Source: Aestuariivirga litoralis | Lineage (GTDB): Bacteria; Pseudomonadota; Alphaproteobacteria; Rhizobiales; Aestuariivirgaceae | Length of the DNA stretch: 64,000 nucleotides | Assembly: GCF_003234965.1 (NCBI RefSeq) | Contig: NZ_QKVK01000004.1 | Coordinates: forward strand, 1 to 64,000 | Direction: 5' to 3' | In this document: piece after piece, positions 33,391-41,567 of the stretch | How positions within the stretch are numbered: the first letter of the stretch is position 1 | How the letters are laid out: every line of letters starts with the position of its first letter | Notes under the pieces: generated by a model | What the model was told of the DNA's origin: nothing | The model's database searches: none | The model's input: the letters and a program-made list of their open reading frames with translations, nothing else | Program-made: the position numbers and the translations under genes

Positions 33391-34821
33391 TTAGCGCACC
33401 AGGATGTTCTGGAACTGCCAGGGGTCCTTGCGGTCGAGGTCGGTGGCGAAGAGCTCCACAACGGAGTCGAGCGGCGTCCAGCTGGTATAGACGCCGCGCA
33501 CCGGGCCCAGATAGGGGGTCTGGATCTCCAGGCAGCGCTTGTAGTCCATTTCGTCGGTTTCGACGATGCCGGCCATCGGGTTCTCGATCGCCCAGATCAT
33601 GCCGGTGAGCACGGCGGAGGACACCTGCAGGCCCGTGGCGCTGTTATGGGGCGCGAGCTTGCGCGCCTCCTCGATCGACAGCTGCGAGCCGAACCAGTAG
33701 GCGTTCTTCTTGTGGCCATAGAGCAGCACGCCGAGCTCGTCGCGGCCGTCGGCGATCTGCTTCTCGTCGAGGACATAGAAGTCCTTCGGGTGCTTGCCGC
33801 CATTGCCCAGCATCTCCACCCAGGAGAGGACGGCGTCGTTCGACGGATGATAGGCATAGTGGCAGGTCGGGCGGTAGCTCACCTTGCGGCCGGAGCGCAC
33901 GGTGAAATAGTCCGAGATCGAGATCGCCTCGTTGTGGGTGACGAGGAAGCCGAAATGCGGGCCCTCGGTGGGCGTCCAGGTGCGCACGCGGGTGTCGGCT
34001 CCCGGCGTCTCGATGTAGATCGCGGCACCGCAGCCTTTCTTGTGGCGCTTGCCCTTGGGCGGCAGCTTCTTCTCGTGCGTGCCCCAGCCCAGTTCCGCCG
34101 GCTGCAGGCCTTCCGAGATGAAGCCTTCGACCGACCAGGTGTTGACGAAGGTGCCAAAGGGCTTGGGCTGCTTCGTCCGCTGGGTGTCGCGCTCGGCGAC
34201 ATGGATGCCCTTGACGCCCAGCTTCTTCATGAGCTTCGCCCAGCCGTCGCGCGTGGTGGGCTCGGCCACCTTGGTCTTGGTCGCCTTGGCGATGTCCATC
34301 AGCGCCTGCTTGACGAACCACGACACCATGCCCGGGTTGGCCCCGCAGCAGGAGACGGCGGTGGGGCCGGCACCCAGCGCGCGCTTCAGGTCCAGCATCT
34401 TCTCGCGCATCGCGTAGTTGGTGCGTTCGCCCTGCGGCATCTTGCTGTTGTAGTAGAAGCCCGGCCACGGCTCGATGACGGTGTCGATGTAGAGCGCATG
34501 CGTCTCGCGGGCGAGGCGCATGATGTCGAGGCTGTCGACGTCGACGGAGAGGTTCACGATGAAGGCGGGGCCGGGACCAGCCGTCAGCAGGGGCTTCAGC
34601 ACCTGACGGTAGTTCTTGGCAGTGATCGCCGCCTTCATGAAGGCGGCACCCTGCTTCTCGGCCAGCTGGCTGTGCGCGGCGTCGGGGTCGATGACCGTGA
34701 TCTGCTTCGGATCGCATTTGATGTGGCGAAGGATCAACGGCAGTGTGCCCCTGCCGATCGAGCCGAAGCCGATCATCACGATGGGGCCATTCCACGCGGC
34801 GTGCACGGGCCAGTTATTCAT
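33391..34821 (-). CDS. hss: homospermidine synthase
   Basis: This 476-residue enzyme makes the polyamine sym-homospermidine from putrescine (or putrescine and spermidine) in an NAD-dependent reaction. The Rossmann motif is IVMIGFGSIGRGTLPLILRH near residue 15; other family stretches are EPWPGFYYNSKMPQGERTNYA, CCGANPGMVSWFVKQAL and THNEAISISDYFTVR. The start at 34821 is preceded by GGAG. Homospermidine is the main polyamine of many rhizobia. Two small unknown genes lie upstream on the same strand. Confidence 0.94.
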   Translation of the reverse strand: MNNWPVHAAWNGPIVMIGFGSIGRGTLPLILRHIKCDPKQITVIDPDAAHSQLAEKQGAAFMKAAITAKNYRQVLKPLLTAGPGPAFIVNLSVDVDSLDIMRLARETHALYIDTVIEPWPGFYYNSKMPQGERTNYAMREKMLDLKRALGAGPTAVSCCGANPGMVSWFVKQALMDIAKATKTKVAEPTTRDGWAKLMKKLGVKGIHVAERDTQRTKQPKPFGTFVNTWSVEGFISEGLQPAELGWGTHEKKLPPKGKRHKKGCGAAIYIETPGADTRVRTWTPTEGPHFGFLVTHNEAISISDYFTVRSGRKVSYRPTCHYAYHPSNDAVLSWVEMLGNGGKHPKDFYVLDEKQIADGRDELGVLLYGHKKNAYWFGSQLSIEEARKLAPHNSATGLQVSSAVLTGMIWAIENPMAGIVETDEMDYKRCLEIQTPYLGPVRGVYTSWTPLDSVVELFATDLDRKDPWQFQNILVR

Positions 34822-34918
34822 TTCATCGGAACTCCTGTGTTTGCGGGATAGTCCTGCGCCTATAGCGGGTAGGGCTGTCATTCAAAAGGAGAATCTGCAG
34901 GCGCGAAATTGCCGCCGT

Positions 34919-35212
34919 TCAGCGCGTTCCGGCGGCGTAGCGCCAGACCTCGTAGCGGATCTTCGCCTTCTTGTAGGCGTCGAAGATCGCGATGGCATAG
35001 ACGAACAGCCCGCCCGCCAGCTTTCCAATGATGGAGACATCGGGTGCGGCGGTGATGAGGGTGAAGCCGCCCAGCAGGAACATGAAGAACAGGAAGATCA
35101 GCCCGCGCCACGGTTCGCCGTTGAACACCTGCCCGGAGCCGGGCAGCACGATGGCGAGTGCCAGCACGAGAAGCGGGTTCATCGGGCGCTTGGTCTCGGC
35201 GGGGGTGGTCAT
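34919..35212 (-). CDS. small membrane protein, TM2-like, unknown function
   Basis: This 97-residue protein has three hydrophobic segments: PLLVLALAIVLPGSGQVFNG, GLIFLFFMFLLGGFTLITA and IIGKLAGGLFVYAIAIFDAY. The pattern LPGSGQVFNGEPWRGLIF resembles TM2-type proteins, which have a glycine-rich turn between two helices. Function is unknown. Its ATG overlaps the stop of the upstream gene (ATGA), and hss starts about 100 bases downstream with its own likely promoter. Confidence 0.7.
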   Translation of the reverse strand: MTTPAETKRPMNPLLVLALAIVLPGSGQVFNGEPWRGLIFLFFMFLLGGFTLITAAPDVSIIGKLAGGLFVYAIAIFDAYKKAKIRYEVWRYAAGTR

Positions 35213-35898
35213 GACGCAGTCTCCGGATGGGCCAGCAGGTCGTCCCTGAGGTCGAGCAGATAATCGAGCAGAGGCTTTGCCGCGGCAGCTGGGAAGGGCT
35301 GGAGGCCCATCTCGCTGTCGCGGAACAGCAGGTAGGAGCCACGGCTCGCTTCCTCCGTCAGCCACACGATGCGAAGACCCTTCGGCGAGATCACCAGTTC
35401 CTTGGCGCGCGGGTCGTCGAGGATGGCGGCATGCTTCAGCAGAAGCTGCCGCGGTGGCAGCAGCTGCGGGGCATCGGTGCGCACCGTGCAATCATGCGGG
35501 AAGGCGGGGTCGGGCGCCATCTGCACCGGCAACGCGGCGTGGCGTGAGAACACCTCGACGCCGCGCGGCCGCATCATCAGGTCGAAGGTTGCCTTGACGG
35601 GCATCGGCTCGGGCAGCGAGACCAGCAGCCACAGGCTGGGCAGCTTGCGGAAATTCAGCGTGTCCGGGACCAGCTGGATGTCGAAGGTGGCGCCCCGGTA
35701 AGTGCCGCTGATGCGCGGGAAACCATCTGGCTGGAGCTTCTTCAGTCCGCCGGTGAAGAGGCACTGGACGTCGTCGAGGAAGGCGGCCCGCCGCGACGCC
35801 CGCACGCGGCCGTCGCGGATGCTCGCGGTGAGGGCGTAGAGAAAGCCCGTTCCGGCAATCGCGGCGGCCAGGGCCAGCAGCAGGTGGGTAATGCTCAC
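35209..35898 (-). CDS. membrane-anchored protein of unknown function
   Basis: This 229-residue protein has one N-terminal membrane segment (MSITHLLLALAAAIAGTGFL) and a soluble domain of mixed strands, with GTYRGATFDIQLVPDTLNF and WLTEEASRGSYLLFRDSEMG. It is probably anchored in the inner membrane. I do not recognise the family. It is translationally coupled to the small TM2-like gene downstream, and the pair forms a two-gene unit between the permease terminator and hss. Confidence 0.65.
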   Translation of the reverse strand: MSITHLLLALAAAIAGTGFLYALTASIRDGRVRASRRAAFLDDVQCLFTGGLKKLQPDGFPRISGTYRGATFDIQLVPDTLNFRKLPSLWLLVSLPEPMPVKATFDLMMRPRGVEVFSRHAALPVQMAPDPAFPHDCTVRTDAPQLLPPRQLLLKHAAILDDPRAKELVISPKGLRIVWLTEEASRGSYLLFRDSEMGLQPFPAAAAKPLLDYLLDLRDDLLAHPETAS

Positions 35899-35918
35899 AC
35901 TCGGGTCCTCTCATGGAA

Positions 35919-35946
35919 CTGGCCCGCCTCGGGGGAGGCGGGCCAG
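35919..35946 (-). terminator. terminator of the permease operon
   Basis: CTGGCCCGCCTC (35919-35930) and GAGGCGGGCCAG (35935-35946) make a perfect 12-bp stem with a GGGG loop (CCCC on the minus strand), 28 bases past the permease stop. The tail is TTCCATG, so the stop may depend on the stem strength. Confidence 0.7.
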
Positions 35947-35973
35947 CGCTGTTCGCATGTCAGCCGCGTGTTC

Positions 35974-37389
35974 TCAATAGCCGCGCGGGCGCGGCCAGGG
36001 CATGGTGAACTGGTCGCCGCGCTTCACGAAGCGGTAGCGCCAGAAGTGGAACCACAGCGAGACCACGATGTAGAAGCCCACCATGGCGATCAGCTGCGTG
36101 CCATAGCCCAGGAACACCGCGAAATAGGTCACCGCGCAGAGGCAGAGCAGCACGATGGCCGGAACCGGGTGGAACGGGTGCACGTAGCCGCGCTTGATGG
36201 TGTCGAGCGGCCACTTGCGGCGGAACAGGATCACGTTGATGGGCATGAAGGTATATTCCAGCAGGCCCGACAGGATCGAGAAGGTGATCACCTGGTCCAG
36301 CGGGGCGCCCAGCGCGAAGAGGATCGCGATGGGCACGAGGAAGATGATCGACCGGAAGGGCGTGCGGAACTTCGGATGCACCGCGCCGAACCACTGCGGC
36401 AGGTAGTGGTCGCGGCCCATGGCGAACCAGGCGCGGGAAGCGTCGTTGATGCAGCCGTTGGCCGACGCCATGGTCGAGAACATCGTTCCGATGCCGAGGA
36501 ACACCATGAGGAAGGTGGAACCCGACAGGCGCGCCGTGTCGAACAGCGGCGCCACCGAACCGTTGACGCCATCGCCGAGGAACTCCCACGGCAGCACGCC
36601 GGTGCAGACGTACCAGGTGAGGGTTGCCGCGATCAGCAGCGTGATGATGCCGGCCATGGTGCCGAAGGGCAGGGCCCGCGCCGGCGAGCGTACTTCCTCG
36701 GCGGCCTGTGTCGTTCCCTCGATGCCGAGGTAGTACCACAGGCCGAAATGCATGGCAGCGACAACACCGATCGCCCCATAGGGCAGCGACGCATCGCCGG
36801 CCATCAGTCCGGCATGGTTGAGCGCCGTCGTGCCGGTGAGGGTCGACAGGAACAGCACGATGATGGCGATGAAGGCCACCGCGGTGATGACCAGGTTGAA
36901 GGTCAGCGTCGCCAGCACGCCGCGATAGTTGAGCCAGGCGAGGAACAGGATCGTCAGCACGATGAACGGCGTCTGGTCGAGTTCGCCCGTATAGCCCGAG
37001 AGCGCGGCCACCTGGGAGACCAGGTAGCCGAGGGTGATGGCGTTGGCCGCCTCCAGCATGGTGTAGGCAAACACCAGGTAGAGGCCGACGTTGAAGGCCA
37101 TCAGCGGCCCCACGATGTGCTTGGCCTGGGTGTATTGCCCGCCCGCCGCGGCGACGGTGGACGTCACCTCGGAGTCGATCATGGCCACGCAGGTGTAGAG
37201 GAGGCCTGCGAACCAGCAGGCGATCAGGGCGGCATAGGCGCCGCCCTTGCCGACTGCGAAGTTCCAGCCCATGTATTCGCCGACGAGCACGATGCCCACG
37301 CCCAGCGCCCAGACATGGGCGGGGCCGAGAACGCGCAGCAGGCTGATCTTCTCGACCTTGCCGCCGGCAGCTTGATGTGCATTTGCCAT
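35974..37389 (-). CDS. APC-superfamily amino acid/amine permease
   Basis: This 471-residue permease has about 12 membrane segments and the APC pattern: LRVLGPAHVWALGVGIVLVG, SEVTSTVAAAGGQYTQAKHI, LGIEGTTQAAEEVRSPARAL and ASRAWFAMGRDHYLPQWFG. The EYMGWNFAVGKGGAYAAL start resembles ethanolamine permeases. It carries an amino acid or amine across the inner membrane; the substrate is unknown. Three tiny membrane protein genes lie directly upstream, each 10-12 bases apart, suggesting they are partners of this transporter. A terminator follows. Confidence 0.88.
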   Translation of the reverse strand: MANAHQAAGGKVEKISLLRVLGPAHVWALGVGIVLVGEYMGWNFAVGKGGAYAALIACWFAGLLYTCVAMIDSEVTSTVAAAGGQYTQAKHIVGPLMAFNVGLYLVFAYTMLEAANAITLGYLVSQVAALSGYTGELDQTPFIVLTILFLAWLNYRGVLATLTFNLVITAVAFIAIIVLFLSTLTGTTALNHAGLMAGDASLPYGAIGVVAAMHFGLWYYLGIEGTTQAAEEVRSPARALPFGTMAGIITLLIAATLTWYVCTGVLPWEFLGDGVNGSVAPLFDTARLSGSTFLMVFLGIGTMFSTMASANGCINDASRAWFAMGRDHYLPQWFGAVHPKFRTPFRSIIFLVPIAILFALGAPLDQVITFSILSGLLEYTFMPINVILFRRKWPLDTIKRGYVHPFHPVPAIVLLCLCAVTYFAVFLGYGTQLIAMVGFYIVVSLWFHFWRYRFVKRGDQFTMPWPRPRGY

Positions 37390-37399
37390 TGTCAGGTCC

Positions 37400-37567
37400 T
37401 CAGATCTTGTGCTGTTCGGTCATCGCCTCGAGTTCGCCCTCGCGGGACGACGTCAGCGCTTCTTCCGAATAGGACGACTCGATCCTGAACCAGTCGAGGA
37501 TGATGTAGAGGCCGAATACCGCGGACAGGATCCAGGCCGCGTATTCCATGTAATTCCAGAAACTCAT
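37400..37567 (-). CDS. 55-residue single-span membrane protein
   Basis: The short frame from ATG 37567 to TGA 37400 codes for 55 residues: MSFWNYMEYAAWILSAVFGL leads into a single membrane segment (about 8-27), followed by a charged tail (SSYSEEALTSSREGELEAM). AGGAGCG precedes the start. It lies 11 bases after the previous gene and 10 before the permease. Size, site and spacing make it real; I know of no named family. It may be a small subunit or regulator of the permease. Confidence 0.72.
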   Translation of the reverse strand: MSFWNYMEYAAWILSAVFGLYIILDWFRIESSYSEEALTSSREGELEAMTEQHKI

Positions 37568-37578
37568 GGGCGTCGCTC

Positions 37579-37974
37579 CTATTTCCTGTCGCCGAATTTC
37601 TCGGCAATCACTTCCTTGTACTCGACACCCGAGAACCGGATGATGAGGAAGAAGTAGCCAACCACCACCACGATCATGATCGCCAGTTCGAGCGGGTCGA
37701 TGGTGTAGTCGTAGCGGGCGGTGATGATGTTCTGCAGGGCCTCGTTGTCAGGGCTGTCGAAGCCGAGCGCGTTGTAGGCCGCGATCTTCTCCGGCGTGTC
37801 CTGTCCGAGGTCGGCCCAGGTGGCGGTGGGGTTGAAGGGCTTGGGGTCCTTGGCGCCGCCTGCGAGGTCCAGCCACAGGGGCAGGCGCAGCGCGCCGATG
37901 ATGAGCACCAGCAGCACGATCACGTCGATGATCTGGCCGATCTTGCTCTGGTGGGGAGGGGTGTATCTTGCCAT
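37579..37974 (-). CDS. two-span membrane protein in the permease operon
   Basis: This 131-residue protein has two hydrophobic segments, at about residues 13-38 (IDVIVLLVLIIGALRLPLWL) and 95-113 (LELAIMIVVVVGYFFLIIRF). Between them is a 55-residue loop with an aromatic and acidic stretch (TATWADLGQDTPEKIAAYNA), most likely in the periplasm. I do not recognise a family. It is the second of four tightly spaced genes ending with the APC permease. Confidence 0.75.
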   Translation of the reverse strand: MARYTPPHQSKIGQIIDVIVLLVLIIGALRLPLWLDLAGGAKDPKPFNPTATWADLGQDTPEKIAAYNALGFDSPDNEALQNIITARYDYTIDPLELAIMIVVVVGYFFLIIRFSGVEYKEVIAEKFGDRK

Positions 37975-37986
37975 GTGCCGTTCCCC

Positions 37987-38274
37987 TCAGTGCCGGTGGC
38001 CACGCATCTCGTCGAGATGCTTGATGTCGAGGCCATAGATGAAGTCCTTGTCCTCCTTGTAGTGCCTCACCATCGCGCCCATCGAGGCGGTGTTGAAGAG
38101 AAGGACGGCGGCTCCGCCGATCAGGAGGATGGTGCGCCAGGGTCCCTCGGGTGCGAGGTTCCAGGTGCCGATCATCACGAAGATGATCGCAAACCAGAGG
38201 CCGATGACGAACGCATATGCCACGAGCACATCGCGCCGGTACATCGCCTCAATGCGTTGCTTGAGGTCAGACAT
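37987..38274 (-). CDS. two-span membrane protein, first gene of the permease operon
   Basis: This 95-residue protein has an N-terminal basic helix (MSDLKQRIEAMYRRD), two membrane segments (VAYAFVIGLWFAIIFVMIGT and TILLIGGAAVLLFNTASMGA) and a charged C-terminal tail ending KHLDEMRGHRH. The short loop between the segments (NLAPEGPW) is likely outside. No family is recognised. It opens an operon of three small membrane proteins and one APC permease; the 160 bases upstream have a TTGACA on the minus strand (38398-38393) that may be its promoter. Confidence 0.75.
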   Translation of the reverse strand: MSDLKQRIEAMYRRDVLVAYAFVIGLWFAIIFVMIGTWNLAPEGPWRTILLIGGAAVLLFNTASMGAMVRHYKEDKDFIYGLDIKHLDEMRGHRH

Positions 38275-38434
38275 GCGTTTCTCCCATTGACCAGCCATTA
38301 TCCTCGCTGCGGGCTGGGCCAATCCCCTATGTGAGTCGTTATTGCTGCGAGGTAATTTTGTTATCTGGGAGGAAACTCTTCATTGCTAACGATGTCAAGC
38401 AATCACGCCGCCGAAAGTCCGCAAGTGGCCGCTT

Positions 38435-38968
38435 TCAGACCCCCGGCGGTTTGAACCCTGCCATGCGCTTGCCGATATCGTCGGCCGACAGGCCTGTGCC
38501 CAGTGCCGGAACGTTGAACTCGGGCTGGCGCAACACCCTGCTGAAGAGGCCCAGTGCCCGGGCCGGCCAGAAAATCCCGGCAGTGCTCCGCGCCGGTTCC
38601 GCGATGTTCATCTGCAGGCTGTAGGATCGCCCGTTGAAGATCACCTTCCAATCGATCGCCTCCCAGGCAATGGGGCGGGCCGAGAGCCGGCGGTCCAGCA
38701 GGCCGGCCTCCGTCATCTCGATGGCGTTGCCGGCGAGGCTGGCGATGCGCCAGCAGTGGCCCGCCATCACCACGCCGGCGAGGCTCAGCACCACCCCCAT
38801 CACCATCAGCACGATCGCCCCGCCATTCTCGGCCGGCCGCAGCAGGCCATGGCCCGCCGCCACGAAGAGCAGGCCCACCGCGATTTCCGCCACCCAGAAC
38901 AGCAGCAGCAGGCGGGCGATCAACGGGCGGTTGGGGATGAGCACGGGTGCGGGCATGGCGCGGAACAT
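38435..38968 (-). CDS. membrane protein of unknown function (STM3941-like)
   Basis: This protein of about 177 residues has two membrane segments (LIARLLLLFWVAEIAVGLLF, then GGAIVLMVMGVVLSLAGVVM) and a soluble C-terminal part with the pattern EMTEAGLLDRR followed by IAWEAIDWKVIF. That resembles STM3941-type proteins, which pair a two-helix hairpin with a PH-like domain; this is a tentative match. Starts at 38989 (TTG), 38968 and 38956 are possible, and none has a good ribosome-binding site. It is divergent from parE. Confidence 0.65.
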   Translation of the reverse strand: MFRAMPAPVLIPNRPLIARLLLLFWVAEIAVGLLFVAAGHGLLRPAENGGAIVLMVMGVVLSLAGVVMAGHCWRIASLAGNAIEMTEAGLLDRRLSARPIAWEAIDWKVIFNGRSYSLQMNIAEPARSTAGIFWPARALGLFSRVLRQPEFNVPALGTGLSADDIGKRMAGFKPPGV

Positions 38969-39030
38969 GGCCCGGGAGGGGGCGGTCAAGTCAAGTGTTG
39001 CCAGCCACCCCCCTCAGGGGATACTCACCG

Positions 39031-41168: not shown

Positions 41169-41567
41169 TCACCCCCACCGCTCCACCCTCAATCCCTCAA
41201 CCCGCTCGAACTCCCGAGCATTCCCCGTCACCAGCACCAGTCCCTGTGATCGGGCGATGGCGGCGATCATCAGGTCGTAGGCGCCGATGGTGCGGCCCTG
41301 GCGTTCCAGCGTGGCGCGGATGTTTCCGGCCTGAACCGCCGCGCGGCTATCAAAGGGCAGGACGTCGAGGCGGGCTGCGAAGCCTTCGATGATGGCGATG
41401 CGCGCCGCCGGGTCGTCATAGCGCTCGGCACCGTAGTAGAGTTCGAACAGGGTGACGTCGGACACGGCCATGCGGCCGTCATGGGCGGTGAAGGCTTCGA
41501 CGAGGCCGGCGTTCCGCTTCTTCAGCGCGTGGATGCAGATGTCCGTATCCAGCAGATAGGCCAGCAT
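41169..41567 (-). CDS. vapC: VapC-type PIN-domain toxin
   Basis: This 132-residue PIN ribonuclease has the acidic active-site pattern: D7 in LLDTDICIH, E42 in LFELYYGAE, D98 in GAYDLMIAA, and the C-terminal VTGNAREF. VapC toxins cut tRNA or rRNA and are held in check by VapB. Its ATG overlaps the vapB stop (TGATG), the usual antitoxin-first order. Nothing is missing from the core, so it is probably active. Confidence 0.93.
   Translation of the reverse strand: MLAYLLDTDICIHALKKRNAGLVEAFTAHDGRMAVSDVTLFELYYGAERYDDPAARIAIIEGFAARLDVLPFDSRAAVQAGNIRATLERQGRTIGAYDLMIAAIARSQGLVLVTGNAREFERVEGLRVERWG

Follow-up and report, generated by a model that had tools for sequence, protein, structure and literature searches.

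A conserved six-gene cassette around an APC permease is linked to methylated-amine catabolism and is a candidate methylamine uptake system

Results

We analysed a stretch of 64,000 nucleotides from Aestuariivirga litoralis (contig NZ_QKVK01000004.1, positions 1 to 64,000; hereafter the window) and found that an APC permease gene in it is the core of a conserved unit of six genes, A-B-C-APC-X-Y, which is strongly linked to methylated-amine catabolism and probably represents a mobile, co-regulated cassette for the uptake of methylamine (methylammonium) that feeds the N-methylglutamate (NMG) pathway. All genes were called on the minus strand. The permease (35974-37389, 471 residues, AA_permease_2) is preceded by three genes for small membrane proteins, A (37987-38274, 95 residues), B (37579-37974, 131 residues) and C (37400-37567, 55 residues), and followed by a hairpin (35918-35947), X (35209-35898, 229 residues) and Y (34919-35212, 97 residues), with a gene that we call HSS downstream of Y. 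The gaps A-B, B-C and C-APC are 12, 11 and 10 bases, and X and Y overlap by 4 bases. A preliminary description of this locus had reported genes of 95, 131 and 55 codons lying 10-12 bases apart before an APC permease, which the coordinates bear out, but had overlooked X and Y, the methylated-amine class of the likely substrate and a shared upstream element. The conservation and inseparability of the unit, its neighbourhood and co-occurrence with NMG genes, its replacement by Amt within the genus and the shared motif were all computed directly. Methylamine is the likely substrate, judged from sequence and gene context.

The six genes are conserved as one unit

The gene order of the window recurs in other genomes. 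We compared 80 loci, the best 80 of 225 relatives, from Rhodobacterales, Paracoccus, Aminobacter, Rhizobiaceae and others, and A, B and C were present in order in 80/80; because dozens of genomes conserve their open reading frames (ORFs), we regard the three as real genes. A complete permease ORF of more than 440 residues was found in 74 loci, X in 76 and Y in 74. The six loci without a permease ORF comprise four that are cut by a contig end (L060, L061, L070 and L086; G and L numbers are our handles for genomes and loci), one with a broken frame (L114) and one in which the start was misplaced (L122). Spacing is less regular than the window suggests: A-B ranges from -11 to 14 bases, B-C from 1 to 30, and C-APC, with a median of 10, has outliers as large as 118; the minimum of -24 for C-APC (L122) reflects the start misplaced by the script. 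The even spacing had previously been read as the sign of a fixed-ratio complex, a reading that this variation across the 80 loci does not sustain.

Among 61 related genomes B occurs in 25 and the permease subfamily (counted at E values up to 1e-60) in 23, every one of them B-positive, and in the two B-positive genomes that lack the permease (G012 and G040) the contig ends inside the cassette. The order A-B-C-APC was present in 23 of 24 related loci besides the window, with the permease contig-cut in L025 and the cassette of L024 cut before C, and X and Y follow the permease in these 24 loci wherever the contig reaches. The permease was also found in 22 plasmid records, and 6/6 inspected show A-B-C-APC-X-Y, including Sinorhizobium meliloti pSymB, Paracoccus aminophilus pAMI6 and Paraburkholderia caribensis. 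In broader samples B was found in 6/385 genomes of the class and 14/398 of the phylum, and ten further regions from them (nine from the phylum sample, and G400 from the class sample) contained A-B-C-APC in 10/10 cases. Contig ends excepted, small genes without the permease were seen in none of the loci examined. This inseparability fits a multi-component transporter built around the APC permease, so that the earlier suggestion of a multi-subunit transporter retains support from gene linkage, whereas its fixed-ratio argument is weak. The outcome that would have told against this suggestion, small genes occurring mainly apart from the permease, was not obtained, as 23/25 B-positive relatives carry the permease.

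Two loci deserve separate mention. In L024 (G040:C9:1-510) A and B stand where a contig ends; the genome is estimated as 100% complete, and neither a subfamily permease nor gmaS was found in it. L157 (G725:C28), from a 1.9-Mb genome of another class of the phylum, holds the cassette together with gmaS-mgd genes that have diverged. We found no description of the cassette in the open-licence PMC literature, and the term 'amino acid permease' is absent from the main text of the P. aminophilus methylotrophy paper (PMC4543880). Induction of amino-acid permeases is reported for M. universalis (PMC5023235).

The cassette is linked to methylated-amine catabolism

Neighbours in the 80 loci were counted in the fetched flanks, with identity and score limits of our choosing. 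gmaS or mgsABC was present in 43/80 flanks and any methylated-amine gene in 52/80. On S. meliloti pSymB the cassette has dmmDABC/purU/XRE on one side and, on the other, gmaS-mgsABC followed by sarcosine-oxidase-like (mgd) genes, and on P. aminophilus pAMI6 it adjoins mgsABC-gmaS; the names dmm, mgs and mgd are those that we take to fit the annotated products, in part after the literature. The P. aminophilus mgsABC-gmaS operon corresponds to pAMI6p108-105 (PMC4543880). In the window's own genome an XRE-mgsABC-gmaS-mgd cluster is located on another contig, C26 (L135). Across the genus, the cassette is found either by parE and HSS, as in the window, or divergent from mgsABC-gmaS (L025, L026, L029, L036, L041 and L042).

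Genome content shows the same association. With gmaS counted at the family cut-off, it was present in 14/14 cassette genomes of the phylum sample vs 35/384 others (Fisher 3e-14, with kinship ignored and 8/14 positives coming from one genus). Among the relatives, gmaS scored above cut-off in 23/25 B-positive vs 12/36 B-negative genomes, a split gene in G018 counting as a miss. Over all 41 distinct B-positive genomes, gmaS exceeded the cut-off in 38, was split in one (G018) and was found in neither of the remaining two.

An Amt-type transporter takes the place of the cassette within the genus

We searched 37 genomes of the window's genus with the Amt subfamily as query. gmaS is present in 29 of them (28 over cut-off, plus the split gene of G018), and among these Amt was detected in 0/23 with the cassette vs 5/6 without it (Fisher 5e-5, kinship ignored). 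G035 (74% complete) has gmaS and neither cassette nor Amt, and the cassette is present in 0/8 of the genus genomes that lack gmaS. The replacing Amt, which matches PF00909 at 203 bits, occupies the interval from parE to HSS in G005 and G023 and adjoins HSS in G009 and G010. An E. coli AmtB query returned no Amt within the cassette loci searched, so Amt is not the usual neighbour of the cassette there. Amt recurs in methylamine clusters (PMC7574528). At L165, from the distant lineage f64, Amt is situated between the cassette and gmaS.

The cassette, Amt and NMG genes share an upstream element

A survey of dyads and 8-mers in 95 distinct upstream sequences led us to a motif with the pattern GTTTCCTnnnAGAnAACAAArTTGC, whose sole match in the window at up to 3 mismatches is an operator- or promoter-like element (38352-38377, minus strand) that lies 78 nt before A and deviates from the pattern by one mismatch. 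We built a weight matrix from 27 seed sites in 76 loci (the 80 minus four that match contigs of the genus), leaving sites that did not fit the seed unused; the consensus of the sites before A is TGTTTCCTnnnnGAAAAnAAAATTnC. In the window the matrix finds one clear site, at 38352, with 26.7 bits, the next scoring 9.4, and in the NMG cluster of the same genome it scores 16.8 before XRE and 15.4 before mgsA. The maximum in random controls (15 sequences of 20 kb each, without dinucleotide structure) was 11.3 bits. Even with 3 mismatches allowed, the strict pattern of 25 bases has no match in L135, which marks the mgsA and XRE sites there as weaker versions.

Using a threshold of 13 bits, which was chosen after seeing the scores of the window and the same-genome cluster, we found the motif 44-82 nt before A in 23/23 genus loci (22 fetched plus the window; L024, at a contig end, and L027, from another family, were omitted); in L026 and L041, where the genes are divergent, the automatic labels were mgsA and XRE, and the sites were assigned to A from their coordinates, 69 and 75 nt before it. 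The motif precedes Amt in 3/3 loci and mgsA in 10/13 NMG clusters of the genus (6/7 without and 4/6 with the cassette), the misses being L144, which scores 11.4, and L025 and L029, which have none. Outside the genus, a site was present in 1/3 NMG regions (L148), on the opposite strand. Seven other matches occurred in 725 kb, and four of these lie 47-68 nt before an XRE match (L026, L135, L144 and L145). A lone 17.3-bit site stands before HSS (L172:7825-7850, plus strand) in G019, which has no cassette, no Amt and no gmaS above the cut-off; this site is possibly the remnant of a transporter that was lost.

The cassette moves as a whole and independently of HSS

Comparison of the window with related genomes indicates that the cassette is exchanged as a whole unit. 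Relative to the window, G018, G028 and G031 are 93-96% identical in parE and 91-93% in HSS, and only 65-66% in APC, 42-45% in B and 42-43% in X. The opposite holds for G034, which is more distant in its core (parE 88%, HSS 76%) and closer in its cassette (APC and A both 86%). This contrast places the boundaries of exchange between Z184 and A on one side and between Y and HSS on the other. Phylogenies agree: the window groups with G018, G028 and G031 in the parE tree (98/95), whereas in the APC tree it is found apart from them, with G001, G011, G034, G016 and, from another family, G037 (100/100). G016 and G037 form long branches in the APC tree; the loci L026 and L027 have long branches and an unsure placement there.

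These data bear on the role of the neighbouring gene (33391-34881), the product of which we take to be homospermidine-synthase-like (HSS) and which has the domains of Pfam Sacchrp_dh. Were the permease a polyamine or ethanolamine transporter tied to HSS, one would point to the adjacency of HSS in the window and in 14/24 related loci (match above 300 bits) and to the ethanolamine permease model TIGR00908, the best NCBIfam match of the permease. However, TIGR00908 scores 188.9 bits against a cut-off of 381.75, HSS lies near the cassette in only 3/80 loci, each of which matches contigs from the window's genus, the trees of cassette and core genes conflict, and a search for HSS in 25 genus members found it in 23, among them all 11 that lack the cassette. 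We consider this explanation highly improbable. HSS occurs with or without the cassette, and given this, the conflicting trees and the identity contrast we rejected it as part of the unit; its proximity looks coincidental. In L169-L171 and L175-L178 parE and HSS are adjacent, with neither cassette nor Amt between them, and two of these genomes (G012 and G016) carry the cassette at their NMG cluster instead. Z184 (38435-38989, minus strand), between parE and the cassette, is a fast-diverging membrane protein that was detected in only part of the genus loci. Farther away, a 132-residue ORF (41169-41567, minus strand) resembles VapC/PIN-type toxins by eye.

A conserved hairpin separates the permease from X and Y

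The spacer between the permease gene and X contains a hairpin with a 13-bp stem, the structure of which is conserved. Among spacers of 25-140 nt, shorter and longer ones being dropped, the z-score was below -2 in 69/85 distinct sequences vs 1/84 equal-length coding stretches inside X. The hairpin had been described as a terminator shared by the small genes and the permease; a hairpin is indeed present after APC, but X and Y of the same conserved unit lie beyond it. A run of T residues follows it in some genomes (e.g. L053) and is missing in others, the window among them. The hairpin probably acts between the cistrons as an attenuator or mRNA stabiliser, dividing the operon into A-B-C-APC and X-Y.

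X has one predicted N-terminal span followed by a soluble domain, and is probably membrane-anchored with the domain in the cytosol. Its structure was predicted with a pLDDT of 95.4 and a pTM of 0.90. The soluble domain may have a fold like that of TtfA (6t84). In favour, 6t84 was the only Foldseek match under 1e-3 (E 2.5e-4), and its Z of 11.5, at a root-mean-square deviation (rmsd) of 3.7 for 156 residues, far exceeds that of most structures compared; against it, the alignment made by Foldseek itself has TM-scores of 0.38/0.46 and an rmsd of 12.5. The domain also resembles the translocon chains 7tm3_4, 9i78_4 and 6w6l_7 (Z 9.2-11.4), which we presume to be CCDC47, the structure listing naming only translocons. 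TtfA is an accessory factor that forms a complex with the transporter MmpL3 (PMC6593404). Y has two hydrophobic segments, predicted as spans, and weak similarity to DUF6677/DUF5683.

A, B and C are small membrane proteins without a recognised family

By hydropathy, A and B have two predicted spans each and C has one, and A, B, C and X of the window match no Pfam or NCBIfam model at cut-off, in line with the earlier statement that the three small proteins have one or two spans and no recognised family. Scans of 41 rows of B and 21 of A gave scattered weak matches (best E 8e-4 and 9e-4, respectively); the scan for C covered the window's single protein. We set aside the FixQ match of B (8e-4, 4/41 rows) and the DUF4153 match of A (9e-4, 9/21 rows) as effects of span composition. 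A ends in a conserved tail, FIYGLDIKHLD in the window, which is probably cytosolic; the spans of B flank a loop of ~60 residues and are followed by a conserved EY+EVI-EKF tail. The tail of C, LTSSREGE, is near-invariant, and LTSSREG is invariant in 20 aligned rows; elsewhere, Aminobacter has LISSREG and L138 has LTSSQEG. In lineage f64 (L138, L139, L164 and L165) B carries an insertion of ~30 residues.

A physical complex of the permease with A, B and C as its subunits is plausible. The window's own A-B-C-APC genes are not all in frame, and we therefore co-folded the chain of L053, in which they share one frame, reading the intervening stops as glycine and using 68 rows from the 80-locus set. 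The resulting model was poor even for the permease (pLDDT 50, pTM 0.34) and is hence uninformative for or against contact.

A real if tentative possibility is that A, B and C act transiently, as regulators, sensors or insertion and stability factors, which would be compatible with methylamine as the substrate. The near-invariant tail of C and the likeness of the predicted X fold to an accessory factor of MmpL3 (PMC6593404) would suit such roles, and stable contacts find no backing in the poor co-fold model. However, the strict co-occurrence, the close spacing and a hairpin that comes only after APC suggest that the small proteins are made jointly with the permease. Somewhat less likely still, and in our view rather doubtful, is a far-reaching form of the subunit model: a heteromeric APC transporter in which the permease would work only as the core of a multi-subunit amine importer, with A, B and C as subunits and with X and Y serving as modules in the cytosol or for assembly, in which the LTSSREGE tail of C and the TtfA-like domain of X would gate flux by pathway load, and which would have been swapped with Amt in evolution.

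The permease has an altered ligand site that would suit a cationic amine

The permease matches AA_permease_2 with 109.5 bits (Pfam cut-off 27) and AA_permease with 92.2 (cut-off 24.6). PF00909 gave no match in the Pfam scan, in which AA_permease models alone were hit, so that the permease is not of the Amt/MEP type. We rejected an identity as ethanolamine permease, the TIGR00908 score being about half of its cut-off, and as TmoP, the BLASTP comparison with P. aminophilus APC2 not being significant (E 0.13). In a sequence search of the PDB, GkApcT came within ~4 bits of the top matches (69-73 bits). Thr43 and Gly44 in the first transmembrane segment (TM1) of GkApcT contact the carboxylate of the substrate through their amides, and Asp237 sits close to the side chain of the arginine ligand (PMC5803215). 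A profile alignment shows that the Thr43/Gly44 stretch is one residue shorter in the cassette permease, where it reads V36-G37-E38, and aligns Asp237 with E224; all 18 sequences compared share E38, E113 and E224. The altered carboxylate site together with E224 would suit a cationic amine without a carboxylate.

Several observations weigh against a cassette dedicated to methylamine uptake. No methylated-amine gene was found in the fetched flank of 28/80 loci, some of them on short contigs and three from the window's genus. Two B-positive genomes lack gmaS: G040 (100% complete, the cassette running off a contig end) and G131 (82% complete). The exchange with Amt is not exclusive, as G037 and G400, outside the genus, hold both cassette and Amt, and G008 (82% complete), without gmaS, has an Amt fragment. 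The contacts between the permease and the small proteins are putative, the co-fold model being poor. Finally, the permease might carry another substrate, namely dimethylamine, or gamma-glutamylmethylamide or N-methylglutamate, by uptake or overflow exchange. APC permeases often transport amino acids, the cassette also neighbours dmmDABC, and TmoP, the trimethylamine N-oxide (TMAO) permease of these clusters, was reportedly described by Zhu et al. in 2014 as a member of the APC superfamily. Yet the exchange with Amt points to a small ammonium-like cation, and the TM1 carboxylate site is altered; both points still allow dimethylamine. Overall we judge a different substrate to be unlikely, and methylamine to be the better candidate.

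Discussion

From these data we infer the substrate, the direction of transport, the physical contacts, the regulation and what each small protein does, as well as every mechanistic step past membership of a methylated-amine regulon. In the mechanism that we propose, methylammonium would enter through the APC permease, and GmaS would trap methylamine inside the cell. A, B and C, made with the permease, may be dedicated small membrane subunits, or stabilisers or gates, and X and Y, encoded in the same operon beyond the hairpin and probably made at a lower level, may serve as accessory or assembly factors. The cassette would thereby fill the role of the Amt-type transporter of sister genomes.

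Methylamine is a widespread nitrogen compound of soils and the sea. In the accessible open literature Amt is the only transporter that we found named for methylamine entry in bacteria with the NMG pathway. The cassette is a second concrete candidate methylamine transporter in Paracoccus, Aminobacter, Sinorhizobium and many Rhodobacterales, and it offers a testable role for the four protein groups A, B, C and X, none of which has a convincing curated family.

Among known systems, the Amt/MEP transporters of NMG clusters share the apparent role of the cassette and, in the window's genus, take its place and its motif; they belong, however, to the unrelated family PF00909, and A-B-C-X-Y are not beside Amt in L167, L168 and L173. 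TmoP-like APC2, a putative label, is likewise an APC-type permease of methylated-amine islands, but with ~600 residues it is larger, and it has no significant BLASTP match to the cassette permease. The ethanolamine permease TIGR00908 is the top NCBIfam model but is matched at about half the cut-off.

With respect to protein partners, SLC7/SLC3 is an APC transporter that needs a partner, as the cassette permease may; in SLC7/SLC3 this partner is one large heavy chain. SLC3 heavy chains are glycosidase-like, and no Pfam match of this kind was obtained for the window's A, B, C, X and Y or for the alignments of A, B, X and Y. SLC7 light chains pair with these heavy chains, and in GkApcT-MgtS (PDB 5OQT/6F34) a single-span small protein packs on a CAT-type APC transporter (PMC5803215). 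GkApcT shares the APC fold with the cassette permease, which differs in its TM1 ligand site, and MgtS is an E. coli protein brought along with the expressed transporter, whereas the cassette co-encodes three inseparable ones. Since both systems take partners, an APC transporter with a partner is already known as a kind, and the generalisation of the preliminary description that APC permeases normally work alone needs to be qualified. If A, B and C are indeed subunits, the cassette would be a rare native case in bacteria of an APC transporter that has small membrane proteins of its own as partners.

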